In this document: positions 2,592 to 19,347 of the stretch, piece after piece | Layout of the letters: each line of letters opens with the position of its first letter | How positions within the stretch are numbered: the stretch's first letter is position 1 | From: Micromonospora sp. HK10 | GTDB lineage: Bacteria; Actinomycetota; Actinomycetes; Mycobacteriales; Micromonosporaceae | NCBI RefSeq assembly: GCF_000982955.1 | Contig: NZ_KQ058772.1 | Location: 1 to 64,000, forward strand | Direction: 5' to 3' | Length of the DNA stretch: 64,000 nt | The notes under the pieces: generated by a model | Told to the model about the DNA's origin: nothing | What the model saw: the letters and a program-made list of their open reading frames with translations, nothing else | Databases searched by the model: none | Program-made: the position numbers and the translations under genes

Positions 2592-2688
2592 GGTGGCGAC
2601 GCGCACCGGCGGTGACGACGCGCACCGGCGGTGACGACGCGCACCGGCGGTGACGACGCGCACCGGTCCGGTGACGACGCGCAGCGGT
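2592..2688. repeat. 19-bp tandem repeat, about five copies
   Basis: The unit GGTGACGACGCGCACCGGC is repeated head to tail with period 19. The middle copies are nearly identical and the outer ones degenerate. It lies between the aroE stop and the likely GH16 start at 2788. The unit reads open in frame (TTRTG...), which artificially lengthens the downstream frame, so it should not be taken as protein. Confidence 0.85.
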
Positions 2689-2787
2689 GCGACAGCGGCG
2701 TCGCCGGGACGGCGACCGGCGCGGGCGGGCCGCCGCAGCCACCGGGATACCCTGCTGGGCGACCGCCGCCGACGCAGGGAGCCCTCC

Positions 2788-3714
2788 GTGACCGGGCAGC
2801 CGCCCCCACCCGACCGTCCGGCCCGGCGGCTGCGCCGCCGGGCCGCGCTGCTCGCCCTGCTCGGCGGCGGACTGGTCACCACGCTCGCGGCCACCGCCAC
2901 GCCCCCGCAGCGGGGCGGCGCGCGGCCGGCCCCCGCCGAGCCGGCCGTGTCGGTCCCCGCCCGGCCCGCGCCGCCGCCCACCGAGCCGCCCGGCGCCCAC
3001 CTGCCGGGCTGGCGGCTGGTCTGGACGGACGAGTTCGACGGGACGGCGGTCGACCGGTCCCGGTGGAACGTCCGCGACGGCGAGGCGCGCGACGTCGACC
3101 TCGGCTGCAACGTCGACGACCCGGCGAACGTCGTGGTGGCCGGCGGGGTGCTGACCCTGCGGGTGCAGCGGCGGGTGGTCGCCTGCGGTTCCCAACTGCG
3201 GCAGTACACCGAGAGCTACCTGGACACCATCGGCAAGGCCGCGTTCCGGTACGGCCGCTTCGAGGTGCGGGCCCAGGCGCCGGCCGGGCCGGACGGTTCG
3301 CAGGGGCTGTGGCCGGCGTTCTGGCTGCGCGCCGACGACGCCGGCAAGGGCGAGATCGACGTGGTCGAGCTGCCCGGCGGCGCCGCCCACCACCGGGCCG
3401 CCACCCAGGCGATCTTCTACGACTACACGCCCGTGAAGCAGGACCAGCGCTGGCCGTTCCCGGCCGGGCACCCGGGCGACGGCTTCCACACCTACACCAC
3501 CGAGTGGGAGCCGGGGGTGATCCGCTGGTACGTCGACGGCCGGCAGGTGTGGCAGCGGGACCGGCGCAGCACGCCCTGGTTCGACGAGGTCTTCGACAAG
3601 CCGTACAACCTGCGGCTGAACGTCCAGGTCGGCGGCTGGCTCGGCGCGCCCGGCCCGGCCACCCGGTTCCCGGCCGACTTCCGGGTCGACTACGTCCGGG
3701 TCTGGCAGCGCTGA
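2788..3714 (+). CDS. Secreted glycoside hydrolase family 16 (beta-glucanase-like)
   Basis: A 308-residue exported enzyme predicted to cleave beta-1,3 or mixed-linkage glucans or related polysaccharides. Starting at the GTG at 2788 (GCAGGGAG upstream) gives a clean signal peptide: an Arg-rich N-region (RRLRRRAA), then a hydrophobic stretch (LLALLGGGLVTTLAATA). A Pro-rich linker to about residue 70 leads into the GH16 fold, with WTDEFDG, then GLWPAFWL, then the signature GEIDVVE (E189, D191, E194: nucleophile, helper Asp, acid/base). It ends with the family-typical DYVRVWQR. Longer starts run through the tandem repeat and lack a signal peptide. It could process the glycan encoded downstream, but substrate is not readable here. 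Confidence 0.88.
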   Translation: MTGQPPPPDRPARRLRRRAALLALLGGGLVTTLAATATPPQRGGARPAPAEPAVSVPARPAPPPTEPPGAHLPGWRLVWTDEFDGTAVDRSRWNVRDGEARDVDLGCNVDDPANVVVAGGVLTLRVQRRVVACGSQLRQYTESYLDTIGKAAFRYGRFEVRAQAPAGPDGSQGLWPAFWLRADDAGKGEIDVVELPGGAAHHRAATQAIFYDYTPVKQDQRWPFPAGHPGDGFHTYTTEWEPGVIRWYVDGRQVWQRDRRSTPWFDEVFDKPYNLRLNVQVGGWLGAPGPATRFPADFRVDYVRVWQR

Positions 3715-3772
3715 CCGCCGACCCGGCCCGCCGCGGGCGGGCTGACCGCCGACCCGGCCCGCCGCGGGCGGG
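3711..3772. repeat. Two tandem 31-bp hairpin units after the GH16 gene
   Basis: CTGACCGCCGACCCGGCCCG begins an exactly duplicated 31-base unit (3711-3741 and 3742-3772). Each copy contains the short palindrome GCCCGCCGCGGGCGGGC. The first unit overlaps the GH16 stop. The pair probably acts as a double terminator. Confidence 0.7.
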
Positions 3773-3845
3773 CTGGCCGGCGGGCAATATCGTGGCCGCC
3801 GACGTGCCGGGACAGCGGGACGGGCACAGGGGAGGGCAGGGCGCG

Positions 3846-5078
3846 GTGCAGGATCCACGGAACCGCCAGGACGGTATCGGCTGGGTGAGCCGGGCCATCT
3901 TCGCCGACGCGCGGCTGTGGCTGGGCGTCGCGTCCGGCCCCGCCCCGCCGCCCCCGGGTCACCGGGTCGTCGCCCGGTACGCCGTGGTGCCCTCGGTGGA
4001 GCGGGCGAAGTTCCTGCTGCCGTTGGCCTCCCGCCGGGTCGGCGCGGCGTCGACGCTGGCGTACAACGCGCTGCGGCCGCCCCGGGTCCGGGCCAACCGG
4101 CTCGCCGTCGGCGTGCTGGCCGGTTTGGGCGCCACCCGGCTGGCCCGGATGCCGGTGCTGACCGTCGCCGTCCCGAACGCCGCCGACCCGGCTGAGCTGC
4201 TGCTGACCGCGAGCCTCGCCCGGGCCGAGGGCCGGCCGCTGCACGCCGCCATCGGGATCCGGCCGCCCGACCCGCACCACAAGCCGACGCTGCAACTCTT
4301 CGACGACCGGGGCGCGGCGTGGGCGTACGCGAAGGTGGGGTGGAACGAGGCGACCCGGGCGATGGTCCGCGCGGAGGCCGCGGCGCTGCGCGACCTGCCC
4401 CGCGGCGGCGGCGACCTGCCCGACGCGCCCCGCCTGCTGCGCGAGCTGAGCTGGGGTGATCTGGCGGTCACCCTGGTCGAGCCGATGCCCGCGGGCGTGC
4501 GCCGGCTGGCCCGCCCGGACCGGCCGGAGGTGGCCGCGATGCTGGCCGTCGCGCGGCGCGGCGGACCGCCGGCCGCGCCCCGGCCGCTCGCCGGCTCACC
4601 GTTCCTCGCCGACCTCACCGCGCGGGCCGAACGCGCCGGCGGGCCGGTCGTCGCGGCGCTGGCGGCGTTCGCCGACCGGGACGGGGCGGTCGCGCTGGAG
4701 TTCGGCCACTGGCACGGCGACTGGGTGCCGTGGAACCTCGGCACCCACCGGGGACGGCTGTACGCCTGGGACTGGGAGAACAGCGGCGCCGCGCGGCCGG
4801 TCGGCTTCGACCTCGCCCACCAGGGCTTCCAAAGTGCCCTGTCGCTGCGCGGGCGACCGGCGGCGCAGGCGGCCGACGAGATGGCGGCGGTGCTGGCCCG
4901 GCACGGCCGGTCGCTCGGCCTTGACCCGGCCCGCTGCCGCCTCGTCGCGGACGCCTACCTGGTCGAGCTGTGGCTGCGGACCGCGGAGCTCGCCGCGGGG
5001 GGCGGCGGCTGGAGCCCGAAGCTGCACCCCGCGCTGCTGCACGTGCTCGCCGAGCGGCTGCCGGCGACGGGCGACTGA
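3846..5078 (+). CDS. APH-fold phosphotransferase-like protein
   Basis: About 410 residues. The GTG at 3846 follows GGGGAGGGCAG at a good distance; the upstream open frame is a shadow of the GH16 gene. The C-terminal half carries the kinase catalytic loop HGDWVPWN (residues 290-297: HxDxxxxN), followed by a metal-binding YAWDWEN (Asp309), as in aminoglycoside/choline kinase-like proteins. A candidate ATP-binding Lys lies in YAKVGWNEAT around residue 163. The first 150 residues match no domain I recognise. Similar proteins occur near exopolysaccharide genes in actinomycetes, so a sugar or lipid-linked substrate is possible; drug modification is not indicated. Confidence 0.75.
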   Translation: MQDPRNRQDGIGWVSRAIFADARLWLGVASGPAPPPPGHRVVARYAVVPSVERAKFLLPLASRRVGAASTLAYNALRPPRVRANRLAVGVLAGLGATRLARMPVLTVAVPNAADPAELLLTASLARAEGRPLHAAIGIRPPDPHHKPTLQLFDDRGAAWAYAKVGWNEATRAMVRAEAAALRDLPRGGGDLPDAPRLLRELSWGDLAVTLVEPMPAGVRRLARPDRPEVAAMLAVARRGGPPAAPRPLAGSPFLADLTARAERAGGPVVAALAAFADRDGAVALEFGHWHGDWVPWNLGTHRGRLYAWDWENSGAARPVGFDLAHQGFQSALSLRGRPAAQAADEMAAVLARHGRSLGLDPARCRLVADAYLVELWLRTAELAAGGGGWSPKLHPALLHVLAERLPATGD

Positions 5079-5365: not shown

Positions 5366-6199
5366 GTGACGTTGATCTACCTGTTGGGGGCGCTGGCCGT
5401 GCTCGTGCCGGCACTGCTCGTACCGTGGCTGGCCACGAGGTGGGCGCCGGCCGTCGCCGCCAGCCGGACCGCCGACCGGCTACGCCAGGCCGTCGCCGGG
5501 CTCACCGCCGCCTTCGGCCGGCTCGGCGCCGCCCTGGTCGTGCTGCTCGCCGGGTCCGCCGCGGTCATCGCGCTCTGCTGGCCGCTGGGCGAGGCGCTGT
5601 CCCGGCTCGAACCGCACGTCGACCGCCCGGTCTTCGAGTACGTGCACGCCCGGCGGGTCGACGGCTGGGCCGACCTGAACAGCTTCGTCACCGCGATCGG
5701 CGACCGGTACCCGCTGAAGTGGGTCACCGTGGTGGGCGCGATCGCCCTGGCCGTGGCGTGGCGCCGCCGGCGCTGGTGGCTGCCGCTGGTCGCGATGCCG
5801 CTGCAGTTCGTTCTCGAGCAGTACACCCAGCAGATCCTCGCCGTGGTGGTCGACCGCGGTCACCCGCCGACCGACCTGGGCACCTACCCGTCCGGTGGGT
5901 GCGCCCGGGTGCTGATGACCTTCGGCACCATGCTGGCGCTCGCCGCGCTCGTCTGGCGGATCCCGCGCCGGGTCCGGGTGGGACTGCTCACCGCGCTGGC
6001 CGTGCTGGTCAGCGTGGAGGGCTACACCCGCATCTACGCCGAGAAGCACTGGCTCACCGACGTCCTCGGCGGCTGGACCTTCGCCATCCTGCTCACCGCC
6101 GTGATGGTGTTCGCCGTCGCGGTGGCCGACGGGCGGGTCCGGCCCCCGGCGCAACGGCCCACCACCCCGGCCCGGGAACGCGTCCCGGTCGGCACCTGA
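5366..6199 (+). CDS. PAP2-superfamily membrane phosphatase-like protein with variant motif
   Basis: A 277-residue protein with about six membrane segments. It may dephosphorylate lipid pyrophosphates such as undecaprenyl-PP, which would suit its place at the head of a glycan locus. The third PAP2 motif is intact (TR-x5-H-x3-D, residues 221-232, YTRIYAEKHWLTD). The second is PSGG (175-178) instead of PSGH, so the usual motif-2 His is missing. The first motif is degenerate (VVVDRGHPP). The GTG start at 5366 leads straight into a membrane helix. Activity is uncertain. Confidence 0.72.
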   Translation: MTLIYLLGALAVLVPALLVPWLATRWAPAVAASRTADRLRQAVAGLTAAFGRLGAALVVLLAGSAAVIALCWPLGEALSRLEPHVDRPVFEYVHARRVDGWADLNSFVTAIGDRYPLKWVTVVGAIALAVAWRRRRWWLPLVAMPLQFVLEQYTQQILAVVVDRGHPPTDLGTYPSGGCARVLMTFGTMLALAALVWRIPRRVRVGLLTALAVLVSVEGYTRIYAEKHWLTDVLGGWTFAILLTAVMVFAVAVADGRVRPPAQRPTTPARERVPVGT

Positions 6200-6265
6200 A
6201 CCGGCGGCCCGCCGCCACCCCGCACCTGTCCCACGCCACCCCTCGATCGGAAGGTGGGCAACGAC

Positions 6266-7213
6266 GTGACCACCCTTCTCGTCGCCTCCACCGGTGGGCA
6301 CCTCGCCGAGTTGTACGACCTGAAGCCCCGGCTGGGCCTGGGTGACGACTGCGTCTGGGCGACCTTCGACTCGCCGCAGAGCCGGTCCCTGTTGGACGGT
6401 CACGAGGTCATCCACGTGCCGCCCGCGACCACCCGGGACGCGCTCGGCACGCTGCGCGACCTGCTGGCCGCTCGCCGGGTGCTGCGCGGCGGGCGGTTCA
6501 CCCGCGTGGTCAGCACCGGCGCCAGTGTGGCCATGTCGTTCTTCGTGCCCGCCAGCCGGCACGGGCTGGCCTGCCACTACATCGAGAGCGCGACCCGCAC
6601 GGCCGGGCCCTCGCTCACCGGCCGGCTGGTCTCCCGGGTACCCCGCACCCGGCTCTACACCCAGCACCTGGACTGGGCCGACGACCGGTGGCGCTACGGC
6701 GGCACCGTCTTCGACGGCTACCAGGCCAGCCGCCGGGTCACCCCCCGACCGGTGTCCCGGATCGTGGTGGCCCTCGGCACGCACGGGCGGTTCGGCTTCC
6801 CCCGGCTGCTGGCCCGCCTGGTCGAGGTGGTGCCGCCCGAGGCGGAGGTGCTCTGGCAGGTCGGCGCCACCCGGATCCCCCGGATGCCGGCCGGGGCCCG
6901 CCCGCACGTCCCGTACGCCGAGATGCAGCAGGCGATGCGGGAGGCCGACGTCGTGGTGACCCACGCCGGCGTGGGCTCGGCGCTGGCCGCGATGCGGGCC
7001 GGCCACCGGGCCGTCTTCGTGCCGCGCCGGCGTAGCCACCGCGAGCACGTCGACGACCACCAGGTCGAACTGGCCCGGCAGCTGGACCGCCGGCAGTTGG
7101 TCCGGCACCGGGAGGCGGACGCCGTGACGGTCGAGGACCTGGCGGAGGCGGCGTCCTGGACGGTCGCCGCGACCGGTGCCGTGGCGCCGTTCGAGTGGAC
7201 GGAGCTGGCATGA
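6266..7213 (+). CDS. Alg14/Alg13-like (PssD/PssE-like) fused glycosyltransferase
   Basis: About 315 residues. The N-terminal half resembles the Alg14/PssD membrane-recruiting subunit (LLVASTGGHLAELYDL at the start, then STGASVAMSFFVPA). The C-terminal half resembles the Alg13/PssE GT-B catalytic half (VVALGTHGRFGFPRLLARL, VVVTHAGVGSALAAMRAG for UDP-sugar binding, then PRRRSHREHVDDHQ). Such proteins usually add a sugar from a UDP donor to a lipid-linked acceptor on the cytoplasmic face. I chose the GTG at 6266 because GAAGGTGG lies just upstream and the protein then begins at the conserved first beta strand; the GTG at 6254 is possible. Confidence 0.8.
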   Translation: MTTLLVASTGGHLAELYDLKPRLGLGDDCVWATFDSPQSRSLLDGHEVIHVPPATTRDALGTLRDLLAARRVLRGGRFTRVVSTGASVAMSFFVPASRHGLACHYIESATRTAGPSLTGRLVSRVPRTRLYTQHLDWADDRWRYGGTVFDGYQASRRVTPRPVSRIVVALGTHGRFGFPRLLARLVEVVPPEAEVLWQVGATRIPRMPAGARPHVPYAEMQQAMREADVVVTHAGVGSALAAMRAGHRAVFVPRRRSHREHVDDHQVELARQLDRRQLVRHREADAVTVEDLAEAASWTVAATGAVAPFEWTELA

Positions 7214-7409
7214 GGCCGCCACCGCACGGCCGACCCGGCAGCCCGCCCGGCCGGTCGACACCGGCCCCCGTCCGCACCGGGCGCTCGGGACGCGACCCGT
7301 ACGGCCCGGCCGGACCGAGCCGGTGATCGAGCGAACCGGACGGTTGATGGTGCGCAATGTCCGTTCCCCGCAAGCTACCCGTGATTTCTCTACCTCTTTG
7401 GGGGCAGTA

Positions 7410-9353
7410 GTGCTTCACAGAACGTCTCGTCCGGTGTGGCGGCGGTGGTGCGCCGCGGTCGCCGTACCGGTGCTCGCCGTCGGGCTGCTCGGGGCGCCGG
7501 CCGCCGCGGCCAACCCCACGCCGGTGACCAGCACGCTCACCTCGGCGAACCCGGCGGACAACACGCCGCACGCGCAGAACGGCGACACCAAGGCGTTCGC
7601 CGAGATCGGCAACACCGTCTACGTGGGCGGTTCCTTCACCTCGGTGAAGGCGGCCGGCGACGCCAGCTGGACGGCCCGCAACTACCTCTTCGCGTACGAC
7701 CGCTCCACCGGCGCGCTGAAGACCGGCTTCACCCCGGAGCTGAACGGCGCGGTGCACGCCCTCGCGGTCAGCCCGGACGGCAAGCTCATCGTCGGCGGCG
7801 CCTTCAACACCGTGAACGGGGTCAGCCGCAAGAACCTGGTCGAGCTGGACCCGGCCACCGGCGCGACGGTGACCAGCTGGGTCGGGCGCAGTGACGGCGG
7901 CCTGGTGCGGCGCACCATCGTGGTCGGCAACAACCTCTACATCGCCGGCGCGTTCCACTGGGTCAACGGCACCGAGCACTCGCTGCTCGCCCGGTTGAAC
8001 GCCACCACCGGCGCGATCGACCCGAGCTTCCAGATCGACGCCAGCGTGCCCCGGGCCAGCAGCGAGTTCGTCTGGGGTCTCGCGGTCGCGCCCGACCAGA
8101 AGACCCTCGTGGCGGTCGGCAACTTCACCCAGGTCAACGGCCAGGCCCGCAACCAGGTCGTGGTCGTCGACCTCGACGGCACCCCGGCGGTGGCCGACTG
8201 GAGCACCCAGCGCTACGTCGCGCCGTGCTACAGCGACTCGTTCCCGTTCTACGCCCGGGACGTCGACTTCTCCGACGACGGCACGTACTTCGTCATCATC
8301 GCCGACGGCGGGCGGGGCACCGGCGCGTACTGCGACGCGATCGCCCGGTTCGAGACCGCCGACCGGGGCGCCGGCATCGACGCCACCTGGGTCAACTACA
8401 CCGGGACCGACTCGGTGACCTCGGTCGAGGTCGCCGACAACGTGGTCTACGTGGGTGGGCACTTCCGCTGGCTGAACAACGCCAACGGCAACGACGCGGC
8501 CGGCGCCGGCGCGATCAACCGGTTCGGGCTGGGCGCCCTGGACCCGGTCAACGGGCTGCCGCTGGTCTGGAACCCGACCCGCTCGGGCGCCCCGGCGGGC
8601 ACCACCACCTGGGGCCCGATCATGTGGGAGCTGTGGCGCGGCAGCACCGGCCTGTACGCCGGCTTCGACTCCGACGGGGTGGGCAACGAGTACCACGGCC
8701 GGCTGGGCCACTTCCCGCTGGCCGGTGGCCGTACCGTGGCGGCGGTCAACGCGCCGTCCGCGGCGTCGGGCTACCTCTACGTCTCCGCCGCCGACGGGCA
8801 GGCGACCAAGGTGCCGTTCAACGGCAGCACGCTGGGCACCCCGGTCAGCAGCAGCCAGCCGAACCTCACCGCCGCCGGTGCGGCGTTCTCGGTCGGCAAC
8901 AAGCTGTACTGGTCGAAGACCGACGCGAGCGCGCCGAACGGCAGCTACCTCGACGTGTCGATCTTCTCGGGCGGCTCGGTGGGCGCGCCCTGGGTCAGCA
9001 GCGGCTACAACGACTGGTTCAAGCCGTCGACGATGAGCGGCGCGTTCGCTCTGGACGGCCGGATGTACTACACCAAGTCCGGGACGAACAAGCTCTTCTA
9101 CCGCTACCTGGAGCCGGACGGCTACATCCTCGGCTGCACCGAGTTCACCCTGCCCAGCATCGGCCTGGCCTGGGGCAACGTCCGGGGCCTGGCCTGGGTC
9201 AACGGCAAGATCGTGTACGGCAACACGGACGGCTCGCTGCGGGCCGTGCCGTTCGACGGTGCGGCCGTCGACGGCGCCGCGTCGGTCGAGCTCGCGGCCG
9301 CCGGTGGCGCCGTGAACTGGTCGAGCCGGACGCTGTTCTTCGCCACCTCCTGA
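7410..9353 (+). CDS. Secreted beta-propeller protein with delta-60-type repeats
   Basis: About 647 residues. Starting at the GTG at 7410 (G-rich stretch 7400-7404 upstream) gives an N-region HRTSRPVWRRW, a hydrophobic core and an AAAAN cleavage region, a good signal peptide. The alternative ATG at 7347 would add 21 residues. The body repeats a roughly 50-residue blade motif: VYVGGSFTSV, LIVGGAFNTVNG, LYIAGAFHWVNG, LVAVGNFTQVNG, VYVGGHFRWLNN. This is the delta-60/DUF5122 type. No catalytic motif or cell-wall sorting signal is visible. Its place between a glycosyltransferase and a Wzz-like gene suggests a surface or matrix protein tied to the glycan; that is inference. Confidence 0.75.
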   Translation: MLHRTSRPVWRRWCAAVAVPVLAVGLLGAPAAAANPTPVTSTLTSANPADNTPHAQNGDTKAFAEIGNTVYVGGSFTSVKAAGDASWTARNYLFAYDRSTGALKTGFTPELNGAVHALAVSPDGKLIVGGAFNTVNGVSRKNLVELDPATGATVTSWVGRSDGGLVRRTIVVGNNLYIAGAFHWVNGTEHSLLARLNATTGAIDPSFQIDASVPRASSEFVWGLAVAPDQKTLVAVGNFTQVNGQARNQVVVVDLDGTPAVADWSTQRYVAPCYSDSFPFYARDVDFSDDGTYFVIIADGGRGTGAYCDAIARFETADRGAGIDATWVNYTGTDSVTSVEVADNVVYVGGHFRWLNNANGNDAAGAGAINRFGLGALDPVNGLPLVWNPTRSGAPAGTTTWGPIMWELWRGSTGLYAGFDSDGVGNEYHGRLGHFPLAGGRTVAAVNAPSAASGYLYVSAADGQATKVPFNGSTLGTPVSSSQPNLTAAGAAFSVGNKLYWSKTDASAPNGSYLDVSIFSGGSVGAPWVSSGYNDWFKPSTMSGAFALDGRMYYTKSGTNKLFYRYLEPDGYILGCTEFTLPSIGLAWGNVRGLAWVNGKIVYGNTDGSLRAVPFDGAAVDGAASVELAAAGGAVNWSSRTLFFATS

Positions 9354-9529
9354 CGGTCGGCCCGACCGGGCGGCCCGCCGCCGTCCCCGTGACCCGGCGG
9401 ACCGCCCGGAACGGCCGAACCGCTCTGCCGGCCGGGCGGCTCCGTCGGCCACAATGAGACGTCACCGCCCCGGCCGGCCCGTGCCGCCCGGGGCGGTCAC
9501 CGATCCCTCCATGCGCAAGGACCTGACTG

Positions 9530-11215
9530 ATGGACGTGACCGACGTCGCCCCCGCCCGGCAGAGCCCGGTCGGCCTCGTCGAGCTGGCCCGCATCCCGCT
9601 CCGCCGGTGGCGGCTCGTGCTCGGCACGGCGGCGGCGGTGCTGGTGGCCGTGCTGGTCTACCTGTTCGTGCTGCCGGCGACGTACACCGCGACCACCGCC
9701 GTGGTGGTCCGCCCGGTGGTCACCGACCCGTTCTCGGTGCCCTCCGGCGGCGCGGACCGCGCGGTGAACATGACCGCCGAGAGCGGCATCGCGACCAGCA
9801 ACGAGGTGATCGACAAGGTCGCCGCGATCACCCGCCGGGACACCAAGGACGTCGCCGACGCGCTCGAGGTGGAGGTCCCGGTCGGCGGCCAGGTGATGCG
9901 CTTCAACTACTCCGCCGACAGCGAGCGGGAGGCGGTCGACGGCGCCAACGGGGCCGCCCAGGCCTACCTGGACCAGCGCCGCGGCATCTACGAGAACCAG
10001 CGCGCCGCCGTGCTGAAGTCGTACGACGAGACCATCGACGTGGTGACCGCCCAGCGCACCACCACCCAGCGGTCCCTGCCGGACCACCAGTCGTCGGACA
10101 ATCCGTCGCCGCGTACCAGCGCCCTGCTGGACCAGCTGCGGGCCCTGAACGACCAGCTCGCCACGCTGGCCGAGCAGCGCTCCAAGATCGCCTCGGCGGA
10201 TCTCAGCCCCGGTTCGATCACCAGCGCCGCCCGCACCCCGGTGCCGTCCAGCCGCGACGCCGCCCCGCTGATCCTCGCCGCCGGCCTGCTCGGCGGCCTG
10301 CTCCTCGGCGGCCTGGTCGCGTTCGTCCGGGAGTCGCTGGACCGGCGGCTGCGCACCACCGCCGAGGCGGTCAGCACGATCGGCGCGCCACTGCTCGGCA
10401 CGGTCCGCTGGGCGCGCAGCGGGCACCCCGACGAATCCGACCTCCGCTACCTCTCGCTCGCCCTGGCCCGCTGGGTCGACGGCCCGCAGCGCGGCCCGCT
10501 GGTGCTGCTCTCCGCCGGCAGCGACGAGGGACGCGAGCAGGTGACCGCCGGCCTCGCCGCGATCCTGGCCGGCGCCGGTCATGAGGTGCGCCTGGGCGTC
10601 ACCCCGGAGAGCCTGGACCGGATCCGCCCGCTGATGCTCGACGCGCAGCGCCGCAACCCGCCGACCGAGCCGGCCCTGACCAAGCTGCCCCGGCCGCGGC
10701 CGGCCCCGAGCCCCACCCCGGCCGCCGCCGGCACCCCGGCCGCCACCGGGACGCGGGCCGCCACCGGGACGCCGACCGCCGGTGGCGGCGACCCCGAGGC
10801 GACCGCGGTCATCCCCGCCGTACGCAAGCCCCGCCCGTTCCCGACCTCGGACGCGAAGAACGGCGGCGTCTACCGGTCCACCACCACCGAGGACAAGACC
10901 CAGGTCATCCCGGCCGCCCGCACCGCCTCGACCGGCTCGACCACCCGGACCGACGGGCAGGAGCTGCGGATCGGCTCCGGCACCGTGCGGCTGGTCGGGC
11001 TGGACGCCCCGCCGGCCGACGGCCTCACCCTGCTCGACGCGCCGCCCGCGCTGCACGACGAGCGGGGCGTACGGGCCGCCCGGGAGGGGCGCGCCGTGCT
11101 GGTGGCCGCCCGCGACCGGACCCGGTCGGCGCGGCTGGTCCGCCTGGTGGAGCGGCTGCGTTCGGTCGGCGTGGAGCCGTTCGGGTTCGTGCTGACGGGA
11201 GAGGGACGTGACTGA
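9530..11215 (+). CDS. Wzz-like polysaccharide chain-length protein with degenerate BY-kinase-like tail
   Basis: 561 residues. The N-terminal Wzz domain has transmembrane helix 1 at about 29-50 and helix 2 at about 246-267, with an extracellular region between. The cytoplasmic tail looks like a tyrosine-kinase (CpsD/Wzc C-terminal) fold that has lost its nucleotide site. The P-loop position reads LLSAGSDEGREQVTAGLAA (327 on), with no GK[ST]. A Walker-B-like LLDAPPALHD (501-510) and the family-like end VGVEPFGFVLTG remain. About 100 Pro/Ala/Thr-rich residues (380-480) interrupt the fold. No Tyr-rich C-terminal cluster is seen. It overlaps the next gene by eight bases. Confidence 0.82.
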   Translation: MDVTDVAPARQSPVGLVELARIPLRRWRLVLGTAAAVLVAVLVYLFVLPATYTATTAVVVRPVVTDPFSVPSGGADRAVNMTAESGIATSNEVIDKVAAITRRDTKDVADALEVEVPVGGQVMRFNYSADSEREAVDGANGAAQAYLDQRRGIYENQRAAVLKSYDETIDVVTAQRTTTQRSLPDHQSSDNPSPRTSALLDQLRALNDQLATLAEQRSKIASADLSPGSITSAARTPVPSSRDAAPLILAAGLLGGLLLGGLVAFVRESLDRRLRTTAEAVSTIGAPLLGTVRWARSGHPDESDLRYLSLALARWVDGPQRGPLVLLSAGSDEGREQVTAGLAAILAGAGHEVRLGVTPESLDRIRPLMLDAQRRNPPTEPALTKLPRPRPAPSPTPAAAGTPAATGTRAATGTPTAGGGDPEATAVIPAVRKPRPFPTSDAKNGGVYRSTTTEDKTQVIPAARTASTGSTTRTDGQELRIGSGTVRLVGLDAPPADGLTLLDAPPALHDERGVRAAREGRAVLVAARDRTRSARLVRLVERLRSVGVEPFGFVLTGEGRD

Positions 11216-12149
11216 CCACGACCGGCCGGCGACCGGGCCGGCGTACCCGCCGGTGACCGTGGTGGTGGCCACCCGGGACCGGCCAGGGCTGCTGGAACGG
11301 GCCGTCGGCGCGGTCCTCGACCAGGACTACCCCGGCCCGGTGGAGTGCCTGGTCGTCTACGACCACACCGAGATCCGCCCGCTGGACCTGCCGGTGCCGG
11401 CCGACCGGAGCCTGCGGTACGTCACCAACACCCACTCCCGGGGCCTGCCCGGCGGTCGCAACACCGGCGCCGAGGAGGCGTCGCACGACCTGCTGGCCTT
11501 CTGCGACGACGACGACCGCTGGCTGCCCGCCAAGCTGCGCCGCCAGGTGGAGCTGCTGCTAACCCGCCCGGACGCCGCGGCGGCCAGTTGCGGCATCCGG
11601 CTGGAGGGCCCCGGCATCGCCAAGGAACGCCGGCTCGACGCTGCCGAGGTGACCCTGCCCGACTTCGTCGAGGACCGGATCATGGAGGTGCACTCCAGCA
11701 CCATCCTGCTGCCGCGCGCCACCTGGGACGCGGTCGGCCCGGTCGACGAGGAGCTGCCCGGCGGCTACGGCGAGGACTACGAGTGGCTGCTGCGGATCGC
11801 CGCGCACGGGCCGGTGGTGATCGTGCCCGAGGTCCTGGTGGTGGTCGACTGGCACGGCGGCTCGTTCTTCTTCGGCCGCTGGGCGCTGATCGTCGAGGCG
11901 ACCCGCTACCTGATCGACAAGCACCCCGAGCTGGCCGGCAGCCGCACCGGACTGGCCCGGCTGCACGGGCAGATCGCGTTCGCCCTCGCCTCCGGGCGGC
12001 GGCGCCGGGAGGCGGTGCGGGAACTGGGCCGGGTGATCCGGCTCAACCCGCGCGAGAAGCGGGTCCTGGTCACCGTGCCGGTGGTGCTCGGCCTGCTCTC
12101 CGGGGAGCGGGTGCTGCGGCTGGCCCAGCGGACGGGACGGGGTGTCTGA
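11208..12149 (+). CDS. Family 2 glycosyltransferase
   Basis: 313 residues with a GT-A fold. VTVVVATRDRPGLLERAV is the nucleotide-binding first strand, FCDDDDRWLPAKL gives the metal/UDP-binding DxD region, and GGYGEDYEWLLR has the ED acid pair near the acceptor site. It probably adds one sugar of the repeat unit on the inner membrane face. The GTG start lies within the end of the Wzz-like gene (8-base overlap), and its own end overlaps the polymerase gene by eight bases, so the cluster is tightly coupled. Confidence 0.87.
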   Translation: MTDHDRPATGPAYPPVTVVVATRDRPGLLERAVGAVLDQDYPGPVECLVVYDHTEIRPLDLPVPADRSLRYVTNTHSRGLPGGRNTGAEEASHDLLAFCDDDDRWLPAKLRRQVELLLTRPDAAAASCGIRLEGPGIAKERRLDAAEVTLPDFVEDRIMEVHSSTILLPRATWDAVGPVDEELPGGYGEDYEWLLRIAAHGPVVIVPEVLVVVDWHGGSFFFGRWALIVEATRYLIDKHPELAGSRTGLARLHGQIAFALASGRRRREAVRELGRVIRLNPREKRVLVTVPVVLGLLSGERVLRLAQRTGRGV

Positions 12150-13845
12150 CCGGACGGCGGCCACCGCCCCGCCGCCGGTGACCGGCCGAACCCGGACGCC
12201 GGCCCGCGCCGGCCGGTGGTCGCGGCGATCGGCCGTCCCGCCGCTGCCCGTCTGGCCGTTGACCGTGATGTTCGCGCTGATGCCGCTCTGGTGGGCGCTC
12301 GGCGCGTTCTATCTGGGCTGGTCGGTCCTCGGCGTGGTGCTGCTCGCGCTGCTGGTCGCCCGCGGCCGGGTGCCGCTGCCCGCCGGGACGGCCTGCTGGC
12401 TGCTCTTCCTCGCCCTGGTGCTGCTCAGCGCCACCCGGCTGGACCGGGCCACCGCCTACTTCACCTTCGGGCTGCGCTACGGCTTCCTGGTGACCGCCCT
12501 CGTCGTCGGCGTGTACGTGTACGCCCTGGTCCGCGAGGGCGTCGCCTGGGAACGGGTGCTGCGGCCGCTGGGCTGGTACTGGCTCGGTGTCGTGGCGCTG
12601 GGTTGGCTGGCCGTGCTCGCCCCCACCCTCACCCTCACCACGCCGGTGGAGTTGGTGCTGCCGCACGCGATCAGCGGGGAGCGGTTCGTCCAGGCGTTGA
12701 CCCACGTGCGGGTCAACGAGTTCAACCCGGTGTCCCGTACGCCGATCTACCGCACCGCCGCGCCCTACCCGTACACGAACAACTGGGGCACCGCCTACGC
12801 GCTGCTGGTGCCGTGCGTGCTCGCGTACCTGACGTCGGTGCGGACCGGCCGGTTCCGGACCGTGCTCTGGGTGTCGCTGCCGCTGTCGGTGGTGCCGGCC
12901 TTCCTGACCCTCAACCGCGGCATGTTCCTGGGCCTCGGCGCCGGCCTGGTCTACCTGGGCCTGCGGGCCCTGCTGCGGGGCAACGCCCGGCTCATCGTCT
13001 CGATCGCCGGGCTGGTGCTGCTGGTCTGGGTGGTCAGCCTGGTGGTCCCGGTGCAGGACATGATCAACGCGCGGGTGAGCACCACCGACACCAACGTCGA
13101 CCGGATGGACCTGTACCTGCGGACCTGGCAGGCGGTCGAACGGTCTCCGCTGCTCGGCTACGGCGCGCCGAAGAGCGTGGACACCACGCTGGCCGAGGAG
13201 CCGCTCGGCACCCAGGGGCTGATCTGGCAGATCCTCTACAGCCACGGCATCCCGGCGCTGGTCGTCTTCCTCTCCTGGCTGGTGCTGGTCGCCCGCCGGC
13301 TGGCCGCCGCGGTGTCGCCGGCCGGGTACTGGCTGAGCACCATCCCGGTGATCGCCCTGGTGGTGATCCCGGTGTACGCGTACATCGACCCGAACCTGTC
13401 GGTGATCTTCTTCGGTGTCGGCGCGGGGTTGGCCGCCGTCGCCGGCCCGGTCAACCGCCCCGCTCTCGGACCGTCGGCGATGTCCCGGCCGGCGCCGCTG
13501 ACCCCGTGGCGGACCCGCGGTTTCGGCCGGGCCGCGGTGCCCGGCCGGCGGCGGCCGTCCGCGACGGCCGGGGTGGCCGCCGTTCCGCTGCGCCTGGCGG
13601 GCCGTCCCGGCGCCGCCGCGCCGCCGACCGGTGCGGCGGCCCAGCCGGCCTCGGACCGCTCGGACCGCTCGGACCGCTCGGAGCACCCGGAGCACCCCGA
13701 GCGCCCGGACCGTCCGGACCGCTCGGAGCGCCCCGGACCGGCCGCCGGCTCGGCGCCGGTCCCGCCGAGGCCGCGCCCGCCGGCCGACCCGCCGCTGGCC
13801 ACGCCGCCGGCCGGGATCGACGCGGACCGGGGAGGGACACCATGA
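12142..13845 (+). CDS. O-antigen ligase/polymerase-like (Wzy) membrane protein
   Basis: 567 residues with around ten hydrophobic segments between residues 40 and 435. The large extracytoplasmic loop (about 170-215, containing RVNEFNPVSRTPIYRT) and the second loop with STTDTNVDRMDLYLRTWQ...GYGAPKS fit the Wzy/WaaL superfamily. It would join lipid-linked repeat units outside the membrane. The last 120 residues form a hydrophilic tail rich in Pro, Arg and Ala, with a short repeated tract (SDRSDRSDRSEHPEHPERP) unlike the rest. The start is the GTG at 12142. The stop overlaps the flippase ATG (ATGA). Confidence 0.8.
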   Translation: MSDRTAATAPPPVTGRTRTPARAGRWSRRSAVPPLPVWPLTVMFALMPLWWALGAFYLGWSVLGVVLLALLVARGRVPLPAGTACWLLFLALVLLSATRLDRATAYFTFGLRYGFLVTALVVGVYVYALVREGVAWERVLRPLGWYWLGVVALGWLAVLAPTLTLTTPVELVLPHAISGERFVQALTHVRVNEFNPVSRTPIYRTAAPYPYTNNWGTAYALLVPCVLAYLTSVRTGRFRTVLWVSLPLSVVPAFLTLNRGMFLGLGAGLVYLGLRALLRGNARLIVSIAGLVLLVWVVSLVVPVQDMINARVSTTDTNVDRMDLYLRTWQAVERSPLLGYGAPKSVDTTLAEEPLGTQGLIWQILYSHGIPALVVFLSWLVLVARRLAAAVSPAGYWLSTIPVIALVVIPVYAYIDPNLSVIFFGVGAGLAAVAGPVNRPALGPSAMSRPAPLTPWRTRGFGRAAVPGRRRPSATAGVAAVPLRLAGRPGAAAPPTGAAAQPASDRSDRSDRSEHPEHPERPDRPDRSERPGPAAGSAPVPPRPRPPADPPLATPPAGIDADRGGTP

Positions 13846-15380
13846 CCGGGACGACGACCGCGCCGGGCGGCACCGCCACCAGCGCCGACCGGGAGGTCCG
13901 GCGCAGCACCCGCAGCGGCGCCGTCGGGCTGCTCGGCGCGGCGGTCAACGGCGTGCTCGGGTTCGTGCTGACCGTGGTGATCGTGCGCGGGCTCGGGCCG
14001 GCCGGGTCGGGCGCCATGTTCACCGCGATCGGCGTGGTCACCGTCCTGGCCGGGCTCTGCTGCGCGGGCGCGGACACCGCCCTGGTCTGGGCGCTGCCCC
14101 GGCGCACCACGGGCCGCGACGGCGACGGGGCGCGGCTGCTGCCGGTGGCGCTGCTGCCGGCGCTGCTGCTCGGCGTCGCCGTGGCGGTGGCCGGCGTCGC
14201 CCTGTCCGGGCCGCTCGCGCCGGTCTTCTTCGACCCGGGCACCGCCGCCGGCGCAGACCTGCTCCGACTGGCCTTCGCCGGGCTGCCGTTCGTGGTGGCG
14301 ATGACCGTGCTGCTCGCCGCCGTCCGCGCGGTCCGGCCGGTCGCCGCGCTGGTCGCCGTGCAGTACGTGCTGCTGCCCGCGGCCCGACCCGCGCTGGTGC
14401 TGGCCGCGGTCGCCGCCGGTGCGGGGGTCACCGTCGCGTTCGCCGGCTGGCTGGCCCCGGTGCTGGCGGCCGGACTGGTCGCCGCGGCACTGCTGGTCGG
14501 CCCGCTCGGCCTGGCCAACGGGGCCGCGCTGCGCCCGACCGGGCGGGACTGGCGCACCCTGTGGGGCTTCGCGCTGCCCCGGGCCGCGTCGGCGGCCATC
14601 GACGCCAGCAGCATGTGGCTCACCGTGCTGCTCACCGCCGCCCTCGCCGGCCAGGCCGACGCGGGCGTCATCGGCGCCGTCGGCCGGTACGCCCTGGCCG
14701 GGCTGCTCGTCATGCAGGGCCTGCGGGTGGCCGTCGCCCCGCAGCTGTCCCGGCTGCTCGGTGCGGGACGCACCGCCGAGGCGGCGCTGGTCTACCGCCG
14801 GATCACCAGCGTGATCATCGCGCTCTCCTGGCCCGGCTACCTGCTCCTGGCGATCTTCGCGCCGGGGTTCCTGCGGCTGTTCGGGGCGGAGTTCACCGCC
14901 GGCGCGGCCGCCATGGCGGTGCTCGCCGCCGGCATGATGGTCAACTCGGGCACCGGCATCGTGCAGACCCTGCTGCTGATGAGCGGCAGCAGCGGACGGC
15001 ACCTGGTCGCCGCCGCGACCGGCCTGGCGCTCAACGTCGGGCTGGCGCTGCTGCTGATCCCGGCGCACGGCGCGCTCGGCGCGGCGGCGGCCTGGACGGC
15101 CGGCATCGTGACCGAGAACGTGCTGGCCGCGCTGGCCGCCCGGCGGGTGGTCGGCGAGCCGCTGCTGACCCGTACCGTGCTCCGGACGGCCGGCGCCGCC
15201 ACGGCGGGCACCATCGCGGTCGCCGGCGCGGGCGCGGCGGCCGGCGGGCGCGGGGTGGCCGGACTTTTTCTCACCCTCGGGGTGGTGGTGCTGCTCGCCG
15301 GCGCGGCGCTGCTGCACCCCGGGGTACGCCGGCGGGTCCGGGCCGCGGTGCCCACCCTGCTCGGCCGGGCAGCGCGATGA
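13842..15380 (+). CDS. Wzx-like polysaccharide flippase (MOP superfamily)
   Basis: 512 residues with 12 or more predicted membrane helices, starting from the ATG at 13842. It begins in the family way: a polar N-terminus, then STRSGAVGLLGAAVNGVLGFVLTVVIVRGLGPAG, the typical first helix and loop of Wzx/RfbX proteins. It would move undecaprenyl-linked repeat units across the membrane before polymerisation. The open frame upstream of 13842 is a shadow of the polymerase gene. Polymerase and flippase being adjacent supports a Wzx/Wzy pathway. Confidence 0.85.
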   Translation: MTGTTTAPGGTATSADREVRRSTRSGAVGLLGAAVNGVLGFVLTVVIVRGLGPAGSGAMFTAIGVVTVLAGLCCAGADTALVWALPRRTTGRDGDGARLLPVALLPALLLGVAVAVAGVALSGPLAPVFFDPGTAAGADLLRLAFAGLPFVVAMTVLLAAVRAVRPVAALVAVQYVLLPAARPALVLAAVAAGAGVTVAFAGWLAPVLAAGLVAAALLVGPLGLANGAALRPTGRDWRTLWGFALPRAASAAIDASSMWLTVLLTAALAGQADAGVIGAVGRYALAGLLVMQGLRVAVAPQLSRLLGAGRTAEAALVYRRITSVIIALSWPGYLLLAIFAPGFLRLFGAEFTAGAAAMAVLAAGMMVNSGTGIVQTLLLMSGSSGRHLVAAATGLALNVGLALLLIPAHGALGAAAAWTAGIVTENVLAALAARRVVGEPLLTRTVLRTAGAATAGTIAVAGAGAAAGGRGVAGLFLTLGVVVLLAGAALLHPGVRRRVRAAVPTLLGRAAR

Positions 15381-15393
15381 CGAGGAGGACGAG

Positions 15394-16287
15394 ATGACGA
15401 CGCTGCGGGACCGGGTCAAGACGCTGGTGCCCAGCCCGATGGTGAACGGGGTGCGCAGCTCACTGGTGCGCTACGGGGAGCGGACCAGCGACCGGCGTCC
15501 GCTGCCGGACTTCCTCGTCATCGGCACGAAGCGCGGCGGGACCACCTCGCTCTGGCGCTACCTGCTGGAGCACCCGCTGGTGCCGCGGCTCTTCCCGGCC
15601 TGGAACACCAAGACCTCGCACTACTTCGAGGACACCCATGCCCGGGGCGAGGCCTGGTACCGCTCGCACTTTCCCACCGAACGGCACCGGCGCGCCCTGG
15701 AACGCCGGCACGGCGGGCCGACCCGGGTGGGGGAGGCGGCACCGCTGTACATGTTCCACCCGCTCGCTCCGGCTCGGGTCGCCGAGCTGATCCCGGCGGT
15801 GCGGCTGATCGTGCTGCTGCGCGACCCGGTGGAGCGGGCGTACTCGCACTGGAAGGAGCGGCGCACCGAGGGGGTGGAGCCACTCGGCTTCGCCGAGGCC
15901 CTGGCCGCCGAGGAGGAGCGGACGGCGGGGGAGCGGGAGAAGCTGATCGCCGACCCGACGTACGTCAGCAACGCCTACGACTGGTACAGCTACCGCGCCC
16001 GGGGCCGCTACCTGGAGCACCTGGAGCCCTGGCTGGACCGGTTCGAGCGGGAGCAGCTGCTGATCCTGCCCAGCGAGACGCTGTACCGGGAGCCGGCCGC
16101 CACGTACGCCCGGGTGCTGGACTTCCTCGGCCTGCCGGCGCACCAGCTCGACCGGTACGAGGTCTTCAACGACCGGCGCAGCAGCGCCATGGACGACACG
16201 GTCCGCGCCGAGCTGACCCGGTACTACGCGCCGCACAACCGGGCCCTCGCCGACCGGCTGGGAATGACCTTCGACTGGGCCCGCTGA
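15394..16287 (+). CDS. PAPS-dependent sulfotransferase (heparan sulfotransferase-like)
   Basis: 297 residues. Both PAPS-binding elements are clear: the 5'-phosphosulfate loop GTKRGGTTSLW (residues 44-54) and the 3'-phosphate motif RDPVERAYSHW (143-153). Between them lies VGEAAPLYMFHP. The pattern is that of bacterial relatives of heparan N-deacetylase/sulfotransferases, which transfer sulfate to carbohydrates. It is the last gene of the glycan locus, 13 bases after the flippase and with GAGGAGG just upstream, suggesting a sulfated surface glycan. No PAPS synthesis gene is in the window. Confidence 0.88.
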   Translation: MTTLRDRVKTLVPSPMVNGVRSSLVRYGERTSDRRPLPDFLVIGTKRGGTTSLWRYLLEHPLVPRLFPAWNTKTSHYFEDTHARGEAWYRSHFPTERHRRALERRHGGPTRVGEAAPLYMFHPLAPARVAELIPAVRLIVLLRDPVERAYSHWKERRTEGVEPLGFAEALAAEEERTAGEREKLIADPTYVSNAYDWYSYRARGRYLEHLEPWLDRFEREQLLILPSETLYREPAATYARVLDFLGLPAHQLDRYEVFNDRRSSAMDDTVRAELTRYYAPHNRALADRLGMTFDWAR

Positions 16288-16297
16288 CCGCCCCCGC

Positions 16298-16331
16298 CCC
16301 GCCCTGCGGACGTCCGCGTCCGCAGGGCGGG
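16298..16331. terminator. Strong hairpin closing the glycan locus
   Basis: A 15-bp GC stem (CCCGCCCTGCGGACG with its complement) encloses a TCCG loop, 10 bases after the sulfotransferase stop. It has no T-run but is very stable. It separates the glycan locus from aroC. Confidence 0.8.
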
Positions 16332-16383: not shown

Positions 16384-17562
16384 GTGTTGCGCTGGCTGAC
16401 TGCAGGTGAATCGCACGGACCCGCCCTCGTCGCGCTGGTCGAGGGGGTGCCCGCCGGGGTCGAGGTGACCACGGCGGAGATCGCCGGCGAGCTGGCTCGG
16501 CGCCGGCTCGGCTACGGGCGTGGCGCGCGGATGGCGTTCGAGCAGGACGAGGTCGAGATCATCGGCGGGCTGCGGCACGGGGTGACGATCGGCAGCCCGG
16601 TGGCGATCCGGGTGGGCAACTCCGAGTGGCCCAAGTGGCAGACCGTGATGGCCGCCGACCCGGTCGACCCGGACGAACTGGCCGGGCAGGCCCGCAATGC
16701 CCCGCTCACCCGCCCCCGTCCCGGCCACGCCGACCTGGCCGGCATGCAGAAGTACGGCCACACCGACGCCCGGCCGATCCTGGAGCGGGCCAGCGCCCGC
16801 GAGACCGCCGCCCGGGTGGCCGTCGGCACGGTGGCCAAGGCGCTGGTCCGGCAGGCGCTCGGCGTCGAGATCGTGTCGCACGTGGTGGAGCTGGGCCCGG
16901 TCGCCGTGAAGCCGGGCCTGCGGCCCACCCCGGAGGACGCGGTCCGGATCGACGCCGACCCGCTGCGCTGCCTCGACCCGGAGGCCAGCGCCCGGATGGT
17001 GGCCGAGGTCGACGCCGCGAAGAAGGCCGCCGACACCCTCGGCGGCGTGGTCGAGGTGCTGGCGTACGGGGTGCCGCCCGGCCTGGGCAGCCACGTGCAG
17101 TGGGACCGCAAGCTCGACGCCCGGCTGGCCGCCGCGCTGATGTCCATCCAGGCGATCAAGGGGGTGGAGATCGGTGACGGGTGGCAGCAGGCCCGGTCCC
17201 GGGGATCCGCCGCGCACGACGAGATCATCCCGACCGCGACCGGGGTACGCCGGGTGACCGACCGGGCCGGTGGCCTGGAGGGCGGCATCACCACCGGCGA
17301 GCCGTTGCGCGTCAAGGCCGCCATGAAGCCGATCTCCTCGCTGAACCGGGCACTGTCCACGGTCGACGTCACCACCGGCGAGCCGGCCACCGCGATCAAC
17401 CAGCGCTCCGACGTCTGCGCGGTGCCGGCCGCCGCGGTGGTCGCGGAGGCGATGGTCGCGCTGGTGCTGGCCGAGGCGGCGGTGGAGAAGTTCGGCGGCG
17501 ACTCGGTCGCCGAGCTGCGCCGCAACCTGGCCGGCTACCTCGACAACCTGGTGATCCGATGA
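16384..17562 (+). CDS. aroC: Chorismate synthase
   Basis: 392 residues, the usual length. It converts EPSP to chorismate using reduced FMN. The protein begins [20 protein letters not shown] and carries the signature [15 protein letters not shown] around residues 136-150, plus GVEIGDGW and the C-terminal [15 protein letters not shown]. The GTG at 16384 is the only sensible start, since the family begins at exactly this residue. The stop overlaps the aroK ATG by four bases. Confidence 0.97.
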
Positions 17563-19163: not shown

Positions 19164-19252
19164 ACGCCGAGGTGGCCACCGCGACCGTGGTGACCGACGG
19201 GCGCACCCCGCAGGAGCTGGCCGCCGAGATCGCCGCGCTGCTCAAGCCGTGA
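19164..19252 (+). pseudogene. Orphan duplicate of the aroK 3' end
   Basis: 89 bases that align without gaps to the last 89 bases of aroK including the stop (8 mismatches by eye). They translate to [20 protein letters not shown] and onward, two residues different from aroK (S to T, E to Q). There is no start or 5' part. The copy uses GC-rich codons throughout (CTG where aroK has TTA), so it may be the original chromosomal end of aroK. Confidence 0.88.
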
Positions 19253-19347
19253 GGCGCTGCTAAAGCCCTGAGGCGCTGCTCAAGCCGTGAGGCGCTGCTC
19301 AAGCCGTGAGGCGCTGCCTCAGCCGTGAGGCGCTACTCAAGCCCCGA
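19235..19347. repeat. 19-bp tandem repeat grown from the aroK end
   Basis: Six head-to-tail copies of GCGCTGCTCAAGCCGTGAG, period 19. The first copy is the actual end of the orphan aroK fragment including its TGA; later copies carry one to four changes. The array runs into the stop codon of the convergent CtaG-like gene. It looks like local slippage or amplification of a gene terminus. Confidence 0.87.

Follow-up and report, generated by a model that had tools for sequence, protein, structure and literature searches.

We analyzed a 64,000-nucleotide stretch of the genome of Micromonospora sp. HK10 (bases 1-64,000 of contig C124, NZ_KQ058772.1; genome size 6.9 Mb), which we refer to as the window, and focused on a gene cluster resembling a Wzx/Wzy-type glycan locus that carries its own sulfotransferase (ST). 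Ten genes, all on the forward strand, are located between the open reading frames (ORFs) of aroE (1757-2566) and aroC (16384-17562), which form the left and right borders of the site. In order, they encode a secreted glycoside hydrolase of the GH16 type (2650-3714; Pfam Glyco_hydro_16, 71 bits), a protein with a predicted aminoglycoside-phosphotransferase (APH)/choline-kinase fold (3885-5078), a PAP2-superfamily membrane phosphatase or phosphotransferase (5366-6199), a GT28-type glycosyltransferase (GT; 6266-7213, with the frame open from 6254), a secreted DUF5122 beta-propeller (7410-9353), a Wzz-type chain-length protein whose C-terminal part resembles a tyrosine kinase (9530-11215), a GT2 glycosyltransferase (11208-12149; Glycos_transf_2, 57 bits), a Wzy-type polymerase (12142-13845), a Wzx-type flippase (13842-15380) and a heparan-sulfate-type ST (15394-16287). 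An earlier note on this DNA had listed the last eight of these genes (5366-16287), and all eight are present on the forward strand in the order it gave. It placed them inside the aro cluster, which holds in the sense that aroE lies upstream and aroC downstream, the cluster being situated between two aro genes. The families it named were also recovered: PAP2, Glyco_tran_28_C, DUF5122, Wzz, Glycos_transf_2, Wzy_C and Sulfotransfer_1/3 score above their Pfam cut-offs, and the Wzx assignment alone is weak. The unit is larger than these eight genes: the kinase-fold gene at 3885-5078 also belongs to the cluster.

The ST scores above the Pfam cut-offs for both Sulfotransfer_1 (52 bits) and Sulfotransfer_3. 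Compared by sequence with the Protein Data Bank (PDB), it matched 1t8u (heparan-sulfate (HS) 3-O-sulfotransferase (3-OST) 3A1; E 6e-21), the bacterial structure 3rnl (3e-19) and 1nst (the HS N-deacetylase/N-sulfotransferase NDST; 2.8e-16), and a 20-row profile placed 3rnl first (2.7e-40) and 3-OST 3A1 next (1.3e-35). The donor loop GTKRGGTT (residues 44-51), Glu114 and the segment RDPVERAYS (143-151) align with the 3-OST sequence; Glu114, R143 and S151 are invariant across 20 homologs, and we take the position of Glu114 to be that of the catalytic base. Judged by these alignments, the ST is homologous to HS 3-OST/NDST over the catalytic domain, including the donor loop and the glutamate. A crude hydropathy scan detected no signal-like N-terminal segment in the ST or in the kinase-fold protein, in line with what chemistry using a cytosolic sulfate donor requires, and for the ST this makes it likely that the predicted sulfation would take place in the cytosol, on a lipid-linked repeat. 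The sulfate donor 3'-phosphoadenosine 5'-phosphosulfate (PAPS) can probably be made by the host, because its genome contains one gene with an adenosine 5'-phosphosulfate (APS)-kinase domain, which shows 76% identity over 504 aa to the ATP-sulfurylase/APS-kinase gene adjoining a copy of wps-1, a glycan cluster of Actinoplanes missouriensis, at locus L200. Some genomes of the genus contain an additional ST elsewhere, with 44-49% identity to the window ST; in the one such neighbourhood examined (L070, 11711-14133), it is accompanied by a Wzx-like gene and not by a kinase match, and may be part of a different sulfated-glycan locus.

The kinase-fold protein, a relative of WpsI of wps-1 and the conserved partner of the ST, had no match in Pfam or NCBIfam. 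Its AlphaFold model (pLDDT 93.1) gave Foldseek matches that include APH(4), APH(3'), and homoserine, glucosamine and maltose kinases. Among the VIA matches listed, Z was 16.0 for an ethanolamine kinase (rmsd 4.0, 276 aligned) and 13.4-15.1 for choline kinases, APH, FN3K and others; the glucosamine and maltose kinases found by Foldseek are not among them, an absence that excludes nothing. Residues H276, G277, D278, N283, D295 and E297 do not vary among 20 aligned rows and form the motifs HGD...N and DWE; HGD...N and DxE are presumably the catalytic residues of the APH/choline-kinase superfamily. By its modelled fold and these motif residues, the product of 3885-5078 belongs to this superfamily. 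In the kinase alignment, the N-terminal part of the row of L069 is unaligned, apparently owing to a frame error in that genome.

We then asked which genes keep company with the kinase, using 71 loci hand-picked from matches to a kinase profile in our phylum and family genome sets; 40 + 80 neighbourhoods chosen by their ST were excluded from this count. An ST is present within 12 kb in 63 of the 71 loci and adjoins the kinase gene (<600 bp) in 60. Other partners found within the same distance are Wzx (67 loci), Wzy (66), Wzz (64) and GT2 (63), followed by the propeller (34), GT28 (33), GH16 (11) and PAP2 (6). Of the eight loci without an ST, three (L098-L100) are short contigs; the other five (L209, L234, L236, L237 and L238) are form-A-like (see below), and their 20-kb stretch ends before the expected place of the ST.

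Within Micromonosporaceae, the window's family, 233 of 260 genomes contain the kinase family, versus 12 of 396 genomes from the phylum, two of these 12 belonging to the window's genus. Named carriers of an ST, kinase, Wzx and Wzy together include Micromonospora, Salinispora, Couchioplanes, Nucisporomicrobium, Amorphoplanes, Actinoplanes, Planomonospora, Nocardioides and Arthrobacter. Based on the best match to the window ST, the 73 genomes of the genus fall into three forms: form A, with the gene order of the window (81-100% identity, nine genomes), form B (69-74%, 43 genomes) and form C (40-45%, 19 genomes), while two genomes had no match at E 1e-20. These labels were checked against the neighbourhood for the loci examined and otherwise follow ST identity. 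A kinase match was found in 66 genus genomes, 64 of which contain exactly one; the other two (G052 and G668) contain two, possibly split genes. A search for the eight-gene order, which the earlier note had proposed as a check, recovered it in other genomes of the genus (form A, loci L035-L042). More broadly, what is conserved is the set of genes, the kinase-fold protein included, while their order is shuffled.

Forms A and B are mostly located between aroE and aroC, and form C is found elsewhere. For 81 loci of forms A, B and like, a count in which some genomes occur twice, aroE and aroC were present on opposite sides in 34, one border was present in 35 and neither in 12. In the 34 loci with two borders, aroE and aroC are 13.1-18.0 kb apart, with the ST, kinase, Wzx, Wzy, Wzz and propeller genes inside. 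The 12 borderless loci consist of five short or cut contigs, five loci of other genera (L108-L110, L129 and L143) and two form-B loci of the genus (L050 and L249). Thus, the aro site is the rule, though not without exception, in the genus, and it was not seen in the five loci of those other genera. In L050 and L249, no aro gene is present within the 20 kb examined, and the set may also occupy another site. In form-C genomes, aroE and aroC are 60-440 bases apart in eight of nine cases and 2466 bases apart in the ninth (G071); the distance is 213 bases in G032, which lacks a kinase or ST match, 151 in G609, another genome of the family, and 1379 in G643, while in G710, without a kinase match, aroE was not found. 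Because aroE and aroC are nearly adjacent in genomes without the set there, comparison of these sequences identifies the set of roughly 13-14 kb as an insertion at the aroE-aroC junction. The flanking genes themselves are well conserved: identity to aroE was 85-90% in nine of the ten genus genomes in which it was found and 75% in the remaining one, and identity to aroC was 92-95% in all 12 genus genomes searched. Comparison of forms A and B shows the ST to be the most conserved protein (69-74%) and GT2 (44-48%), GT28 and Wzz (about 40% each) to be the least conserved, as if the decoration were kept while the backbone changes.

With respect to the polymer-building genes, the GT28-type GT matched NCBIfam WelK nearly over its full length (1.5e-31; 109.7 of 400 bits), and its halves match PssE (65.1 of 120 bits) and PssD (44 of 110 bits), all below the curated cut-offs, so that it resembles a fusion of the two. 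It is one frame in all eight form-A loci and two frames, PssD-like and PssE-like, in all 24 form-B and form-C loci examined. Enzymes of the WelK/PssD-PssE group catalyze the second step, acting on undecaprenyl-pyrophosphate-sugar. The earlier note had entertained an unusual lipid carrier for this Alg-like GT, and we rejected that candidate as unneeded given this likeness and the presence elsewhere in the genome of genes for priming transferases (PF02397). Wzz (30.5 bits versus a Pfam cut-off of 25.5) shows a weak TIGR03029 match at residues 500-556; its C-terminal part resembles a bacterial tyrosine kinase without Walker A in all 11 rows aligned and is, judged from this alignment, probably a dead kinase retained for structure. 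Wzy_C scored 42.4 bits (cut-off 31.7), and crude hydropathy counts gave about 12 transmembrane (TM) segments for Wzy and about 10 for Wzx; the latter and the Wzx of L200 share 36% identity over 170 aa.

The PAP2 protein (33 bits versus a cut-off of 27.2) has PSGG in all nine rows aligned where the canonical motif is PSGH, and because of this substitution it may be a phosphotransferase or inactive. The propeller (DUF5122, 65.6 bits) has an N-terminal hydrophobic segment (13-35); its AlphaFold model (pLDDT 77.7) mostly found generic propellers among the Foldseek matches listed, and a literature search yielded no paper linking DUF5122 with polysaccharide. GH16 adjoins the cluster in all eight form-A loci examined, of which it is an accessory gene; its true start may be nearer 2788.

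The genes are spaced unevenly. The tight overlaps that had been described apply to the segment from Wzz to the ST, in which Wzz-GT2-Wzy-Wzx overlap by 8, 8 and 4 bases and 13 bases separate Wzx from the ST; they do not apply to PAP2, GT28, propeller and Wzz, which are separated by gaps of 54-196 bases, and 287 bases lie between the kinase gene and PAP2. Conserved blocks are present 5' of PAP2, the propeller and Wzz in seven form-A genomes. Given these wide gaps and conserved blocks, internal promoters within the cluster are likely and more than one transcript is possible. A promoter scan called no promoter, and an Rfam search gave no match. The block ahead of the propeller (7330-7425), kept in the seven form-A genomes, is perhaps a promoter or regulatory site. 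As for the strong terminator before aroC, a hairpin is indeed present between the ST and aroC (16298-16331, forward strand) and is very strong (15-bp stem; -53.6 kcal/mol over 61 nt; z -6.85), but it has no T run and is absent from the list of a terminator scan; it is a probable transcript end. Repeats were also observed: a 19-bp unit occurs five times in the aroE-GH16 gap (2591-2687), a further 19-bp array of 5.7 copies is present at 19235-19343, and the GH16-kinase gap contains a 31-bp direct repeat (3710-3779; 2.3 copies, 97%).

A whole-genome search found no PF02397 gene in the locus or on the window's contig, in agreement with the earlier note; the genome contains four, all on other contigs. 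The copy on contig C190 (L002) shows 86.8-96.5% identity in eight of nine genus genomes; in the ninth, the ORF (L197) was mis-called and spans 1329 aa. The neighbourhood of this copy is conserved throughout the nine genomes. Form-C loci lie near a PF02397 gene, at about 13-15 kb in G044, G060, G022, G019 and G026 and about 17-23 kb in G071 and G011, and in G022, G044 and G060 this gene is the C190 copy. In other families, a PF02397 gene is located about 4-9 kb from the ST (G488, G168, G179, G084 and G114, the last two without a kinase match). Its conservation and its closeness to form-C loci make the C190 copy the first candidate primer for this polymer. Speaking against this assignment, the ST-near PF02397 genes in L053, L054 and L096 are closer to the G000 copy C177, and that in L092 is only slightly closer to the C190 copy. 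The presence of PF02397 genes near ST and form-C loci elsewhere supports a standard undecaprenyl-phosphate start. The C190-type locus L102 (3366-11610) also contains genes for a GT4-type GT, a CDP-alcohol transferase and a CBM2 glycoside hydrolase, as well as two whose products match no Pfam family.

Taken together, the homologies, the gene company kept across many genomes and the study of wps-1 (Tezuka and Ohnishi 2026, PMC13390465; here and below as far as excerpts of that paper go) support the reading of the earlier note as a Wzx/Wzy-type glycan locus with its own ST. We consider it probable, with good confidence, that the locus directs the Wzx/Wzy-dependent synthesis of a sulfated polysaccharide, at the surface or extracellular, and that loci of this kind are near-universal in Micromonosporaceae, the sulfation being predicted. 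Starting from what was observed, namely which genes are present, their folds and conserved company, the three forms and the site of insertion, we infer the following chemistry and order of steps. An unlinked PF02397 transferase would prime undecaprenyl phosphate with a sugar, which the GT28-type and GT2 enzymes would lengthen to a short repeat. With PAPS as the donor, the cytosolic ST would sulfate the lipid-linked repeat, and a sugar of the same pathway would probably be phosphorylated by the partner kinase. Wzx would then flip the decorated repeat, Wzy would polymerise it and Wzz would set the length, while the secreted propeller and GH16 may bind or trim the product outside the cell. By analogy with wps-1, the product might have a role in a spore or hyphal coat. 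More tentatively, and with rather more doubt than conviction, we suggest a sulfated surface-glycan system, family-wide in Micromonosporaceae and not recognised before, in which the heparan-type ST and the APH-fold kinase are a fixed anionic decoration module of two enzymes, adding sulfate and phosphate to one lipid-linked repeat, and the polymer genes are exchanged like serotype loci. Each Micromonospora genome would then carry a single form out of three, and two of the forms would replace each other at aroE-aroC.

Several observations weigh against a sulfated-polysaccharide locus. The Wzx protein is below the Pfam cut-off (MatE, 16.4 versus 24.9 bits), and with only two GTs in the locus the repeat would, priming included, have about three sugars unless others help. 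The top PDB match of the ST by profile, 3rnl, is an uncharacterised bacterial sulfotransferase, and the hydropathy scan flags an internal ST stretch (124-142), which we read as a core strand. The association count has its own limits: the kinase profile (A2) derives from loci with a linked ST, and the close relatedness of many of the 71 loci means that they do not represent 71 independent cases. Locus L099, on a 7.5-kb contig, has a weak kinase match and lacks the ST, Wzx, Wzy and Wzz, and is possibly a true exception. The window and wps-1 proteins are just 27-41% identical; wps-1 has a second ST, GT26, GH26, methyltransferase and DUF4262, none of which is present among the ten window proteins scanned, and the GT28 and propeller of the window have no match in L200. 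Finally, no glycan of this family has demonstrated sulfate, and the wps-1 authors also await verification (PMC13390465).

A rival reading concerns the substrate of the ST. Bacterial STs also modify small molecules, and a second ST is found at another place in some genomes of the genus. A natural-product ST has been reported (PMC12135136, in excerpt). The Wzx/Wzy genes could make an ordinary polysaccharide while the ST, merely located in the operon, acts on a lipid, a small metabolite or a protein. It would be unexpected for such a bystander to keep with Wzx, Wzy, Wzz and the kinase in 63 of the 71 kinase-chosen loci, in several families and in shuffled order; moreover, the ST matches polysaccharide STs in the PDB, and deletion of wpsH, the heparan-type ST gene of wps-1, results in squashed sporangia like deletion of the whole cluster (PMC13390465). 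We regard a bystander ST as unlikely. In another rival reading, the kinase, and not sulfation, would provide the main function, in the form of a phosphorylated glycan or a resistance-like detoxifier: the structural matches include APH(4), APH(3'), macrolide kinase, choline kinase and FN3K, and the HGD...N and DWE motifs are intact. The ST, nevertheless, adjoins the kinase in 60 of 71 loci, the kinase is present in 233 of 260 family genomes, unlike a resistance gene, and deletion of wpsI gives the phenotype of the glycan cluster (PMC13390465); a kinase-centred function thus appears slightly more improbable still. For the same reasons, being near-universal in the family and ST-linked, the kinase gene was rejected as a resistance gene.

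A further possibility concerns the destination of the product. A PssDE/WelK-type GT fits an acidic, uronic-acid-containing repeat, and a PAP2 gene, which could recycle the carrier, is present in form A and some form-B loci; the product may accordingly be a wall-bound teichuronic-acid-like or lipid-anchored glycan, attached by an unlinked ligase, instead of a free exopolysaccharide. No match to a LytR-CpsA-Psr ligase or ABC transporter was found among the ten cluster proteins scanned, and wps-1 was assigned to the sporangium matrix by its authors (PMC13390465). We hold this variant to be a serious possibility that nonetheless falls short of being the favoured form; it is a version of the sulfated-polysaccharide reading, and the two estimates overlap.

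If sulfated polysaccharides are indeed the products of these loci, then the majority of an actinomycete family from soil and marine habitats makes them. Micromonospora and Salinispora strains form single spores, not sporangia, and their carriage of the set would mean that the glycan is no sporangium peculiarity. Outside the cyanobacteria, hardly any bacteria are held to make sulfated polysaccharides (PMC13390465; PMC8205485, likewise in excerpt). The three forms, nearly always one per genome, lend themselves to a natural comparison, and a bacterial enzyme related to heparan 3-O-sulfotransferases that acts before polymerisation would, if confirmed, be useful for glycan engineering.

Compared with known enzymes, the window ST would differ from 1t8u and 1nst in its site of action. 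The animal HS 3-OST and NDST modify the completed polymer in the Golgi lumen, whereas the window ST would act in the cytosol on a lipid-linked repeat before export. The likeness of the GT28 protein to WelK, PssD-PssE and Cps14F-G is nearly full-length, yet below every curated cut-off. As to whole clusters, the xss cluster of Synechocystis resembles the present locus in the gene content described for it, combining a Wzx/Wzy/PCP pathway with ST genes (PMC8205485). Its product, synechan, is the one Wzx/Wzy sulfated polysaccharide with measured sulfate met in our literature search. The xss cluster differs in being cyanobacterial, in having eight glycosyltransferases including a primer and in having two STs of distinct subfamilies, and the excerpts of its description mention no kinase or propeller (PMC8205485). 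An imp cluster of the sporangium matrix has also been described (PMC12691653, in excerpt). Among the papers listed by the literature search, none reported the present cluster in Micromonospora, and no paper was found that treats sulfated polysaccharide, sulfotransferase and Wzx in Actinobacteria together.

The closest known system is wps-1 of A. missouriensis (AMIS_7280-7380), which was predicted by its authors to make a sulfated polysaccharide sited in the sporangium matrix (PMC13390465). It encodes GT2, two STs (one of the heparan type, WpsH), GT26, DUF4262, GH26, a methyltransferase, Wzx, the kinase-like WpsI, Wzy and Wzz, and is adjoined by the ATP-sulfurylase/APS-kinase gene AMIS_7390. 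Deletion of wpsA, C, G, H, I, J or K resulted in squashed sporangia, as did deletion of the whole cluster; the genes with this phenotype include those for GT2, Wzx, the heparan-type ST, the kinase-like protein, Wzy and Wzz (PMC13390465). These six are together in the window too, and, like the window, wps-1 has no priming transferase among the genes listed in those excerpts. Locus L200 (G643) matches wps-1 by gene order and Pfam content (ST, second ST, DUF4262 at residues 27-152 as published, GH26 and APS kinase). Identities between the window and L200 are 41% over 290 aa for the ST, 32% over 364 for the kinase, 41% over 304 for GT2, 29% over 374 for Wzy and 27% over 281 for Wzz, in addition to that given above for Wzx; the PAP2 and GH16 of the window likewise have no match in L200. 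In a quick tree of 90 ST rows, in which the outer rows are uncertain owing to long branches, forms A, B and like fall into one starred set of 37 that includes the window ST, and 13 wps-1-like rows, form C and others fall into another starred set of 33, so that the window ST and the WpsH-like STs belong to different clades. A/B-like and wps-1-like sets coexist in five genomes examined (G574, G609, G673, G676 and G682). Since the ST clade differs and several wps-1 genes are absent, we rejected the possibility that the cluster is wps-1 itself. The locus therefore represents a new lineage and arrangement of a kind that was, by the literature searched, first reported in 2026 with wps-1; new here are a parts list extended by the kinase and GH16, the definition of an insertion site, a distribution that spans the family and the presence of three forms, nearly always one per genome.

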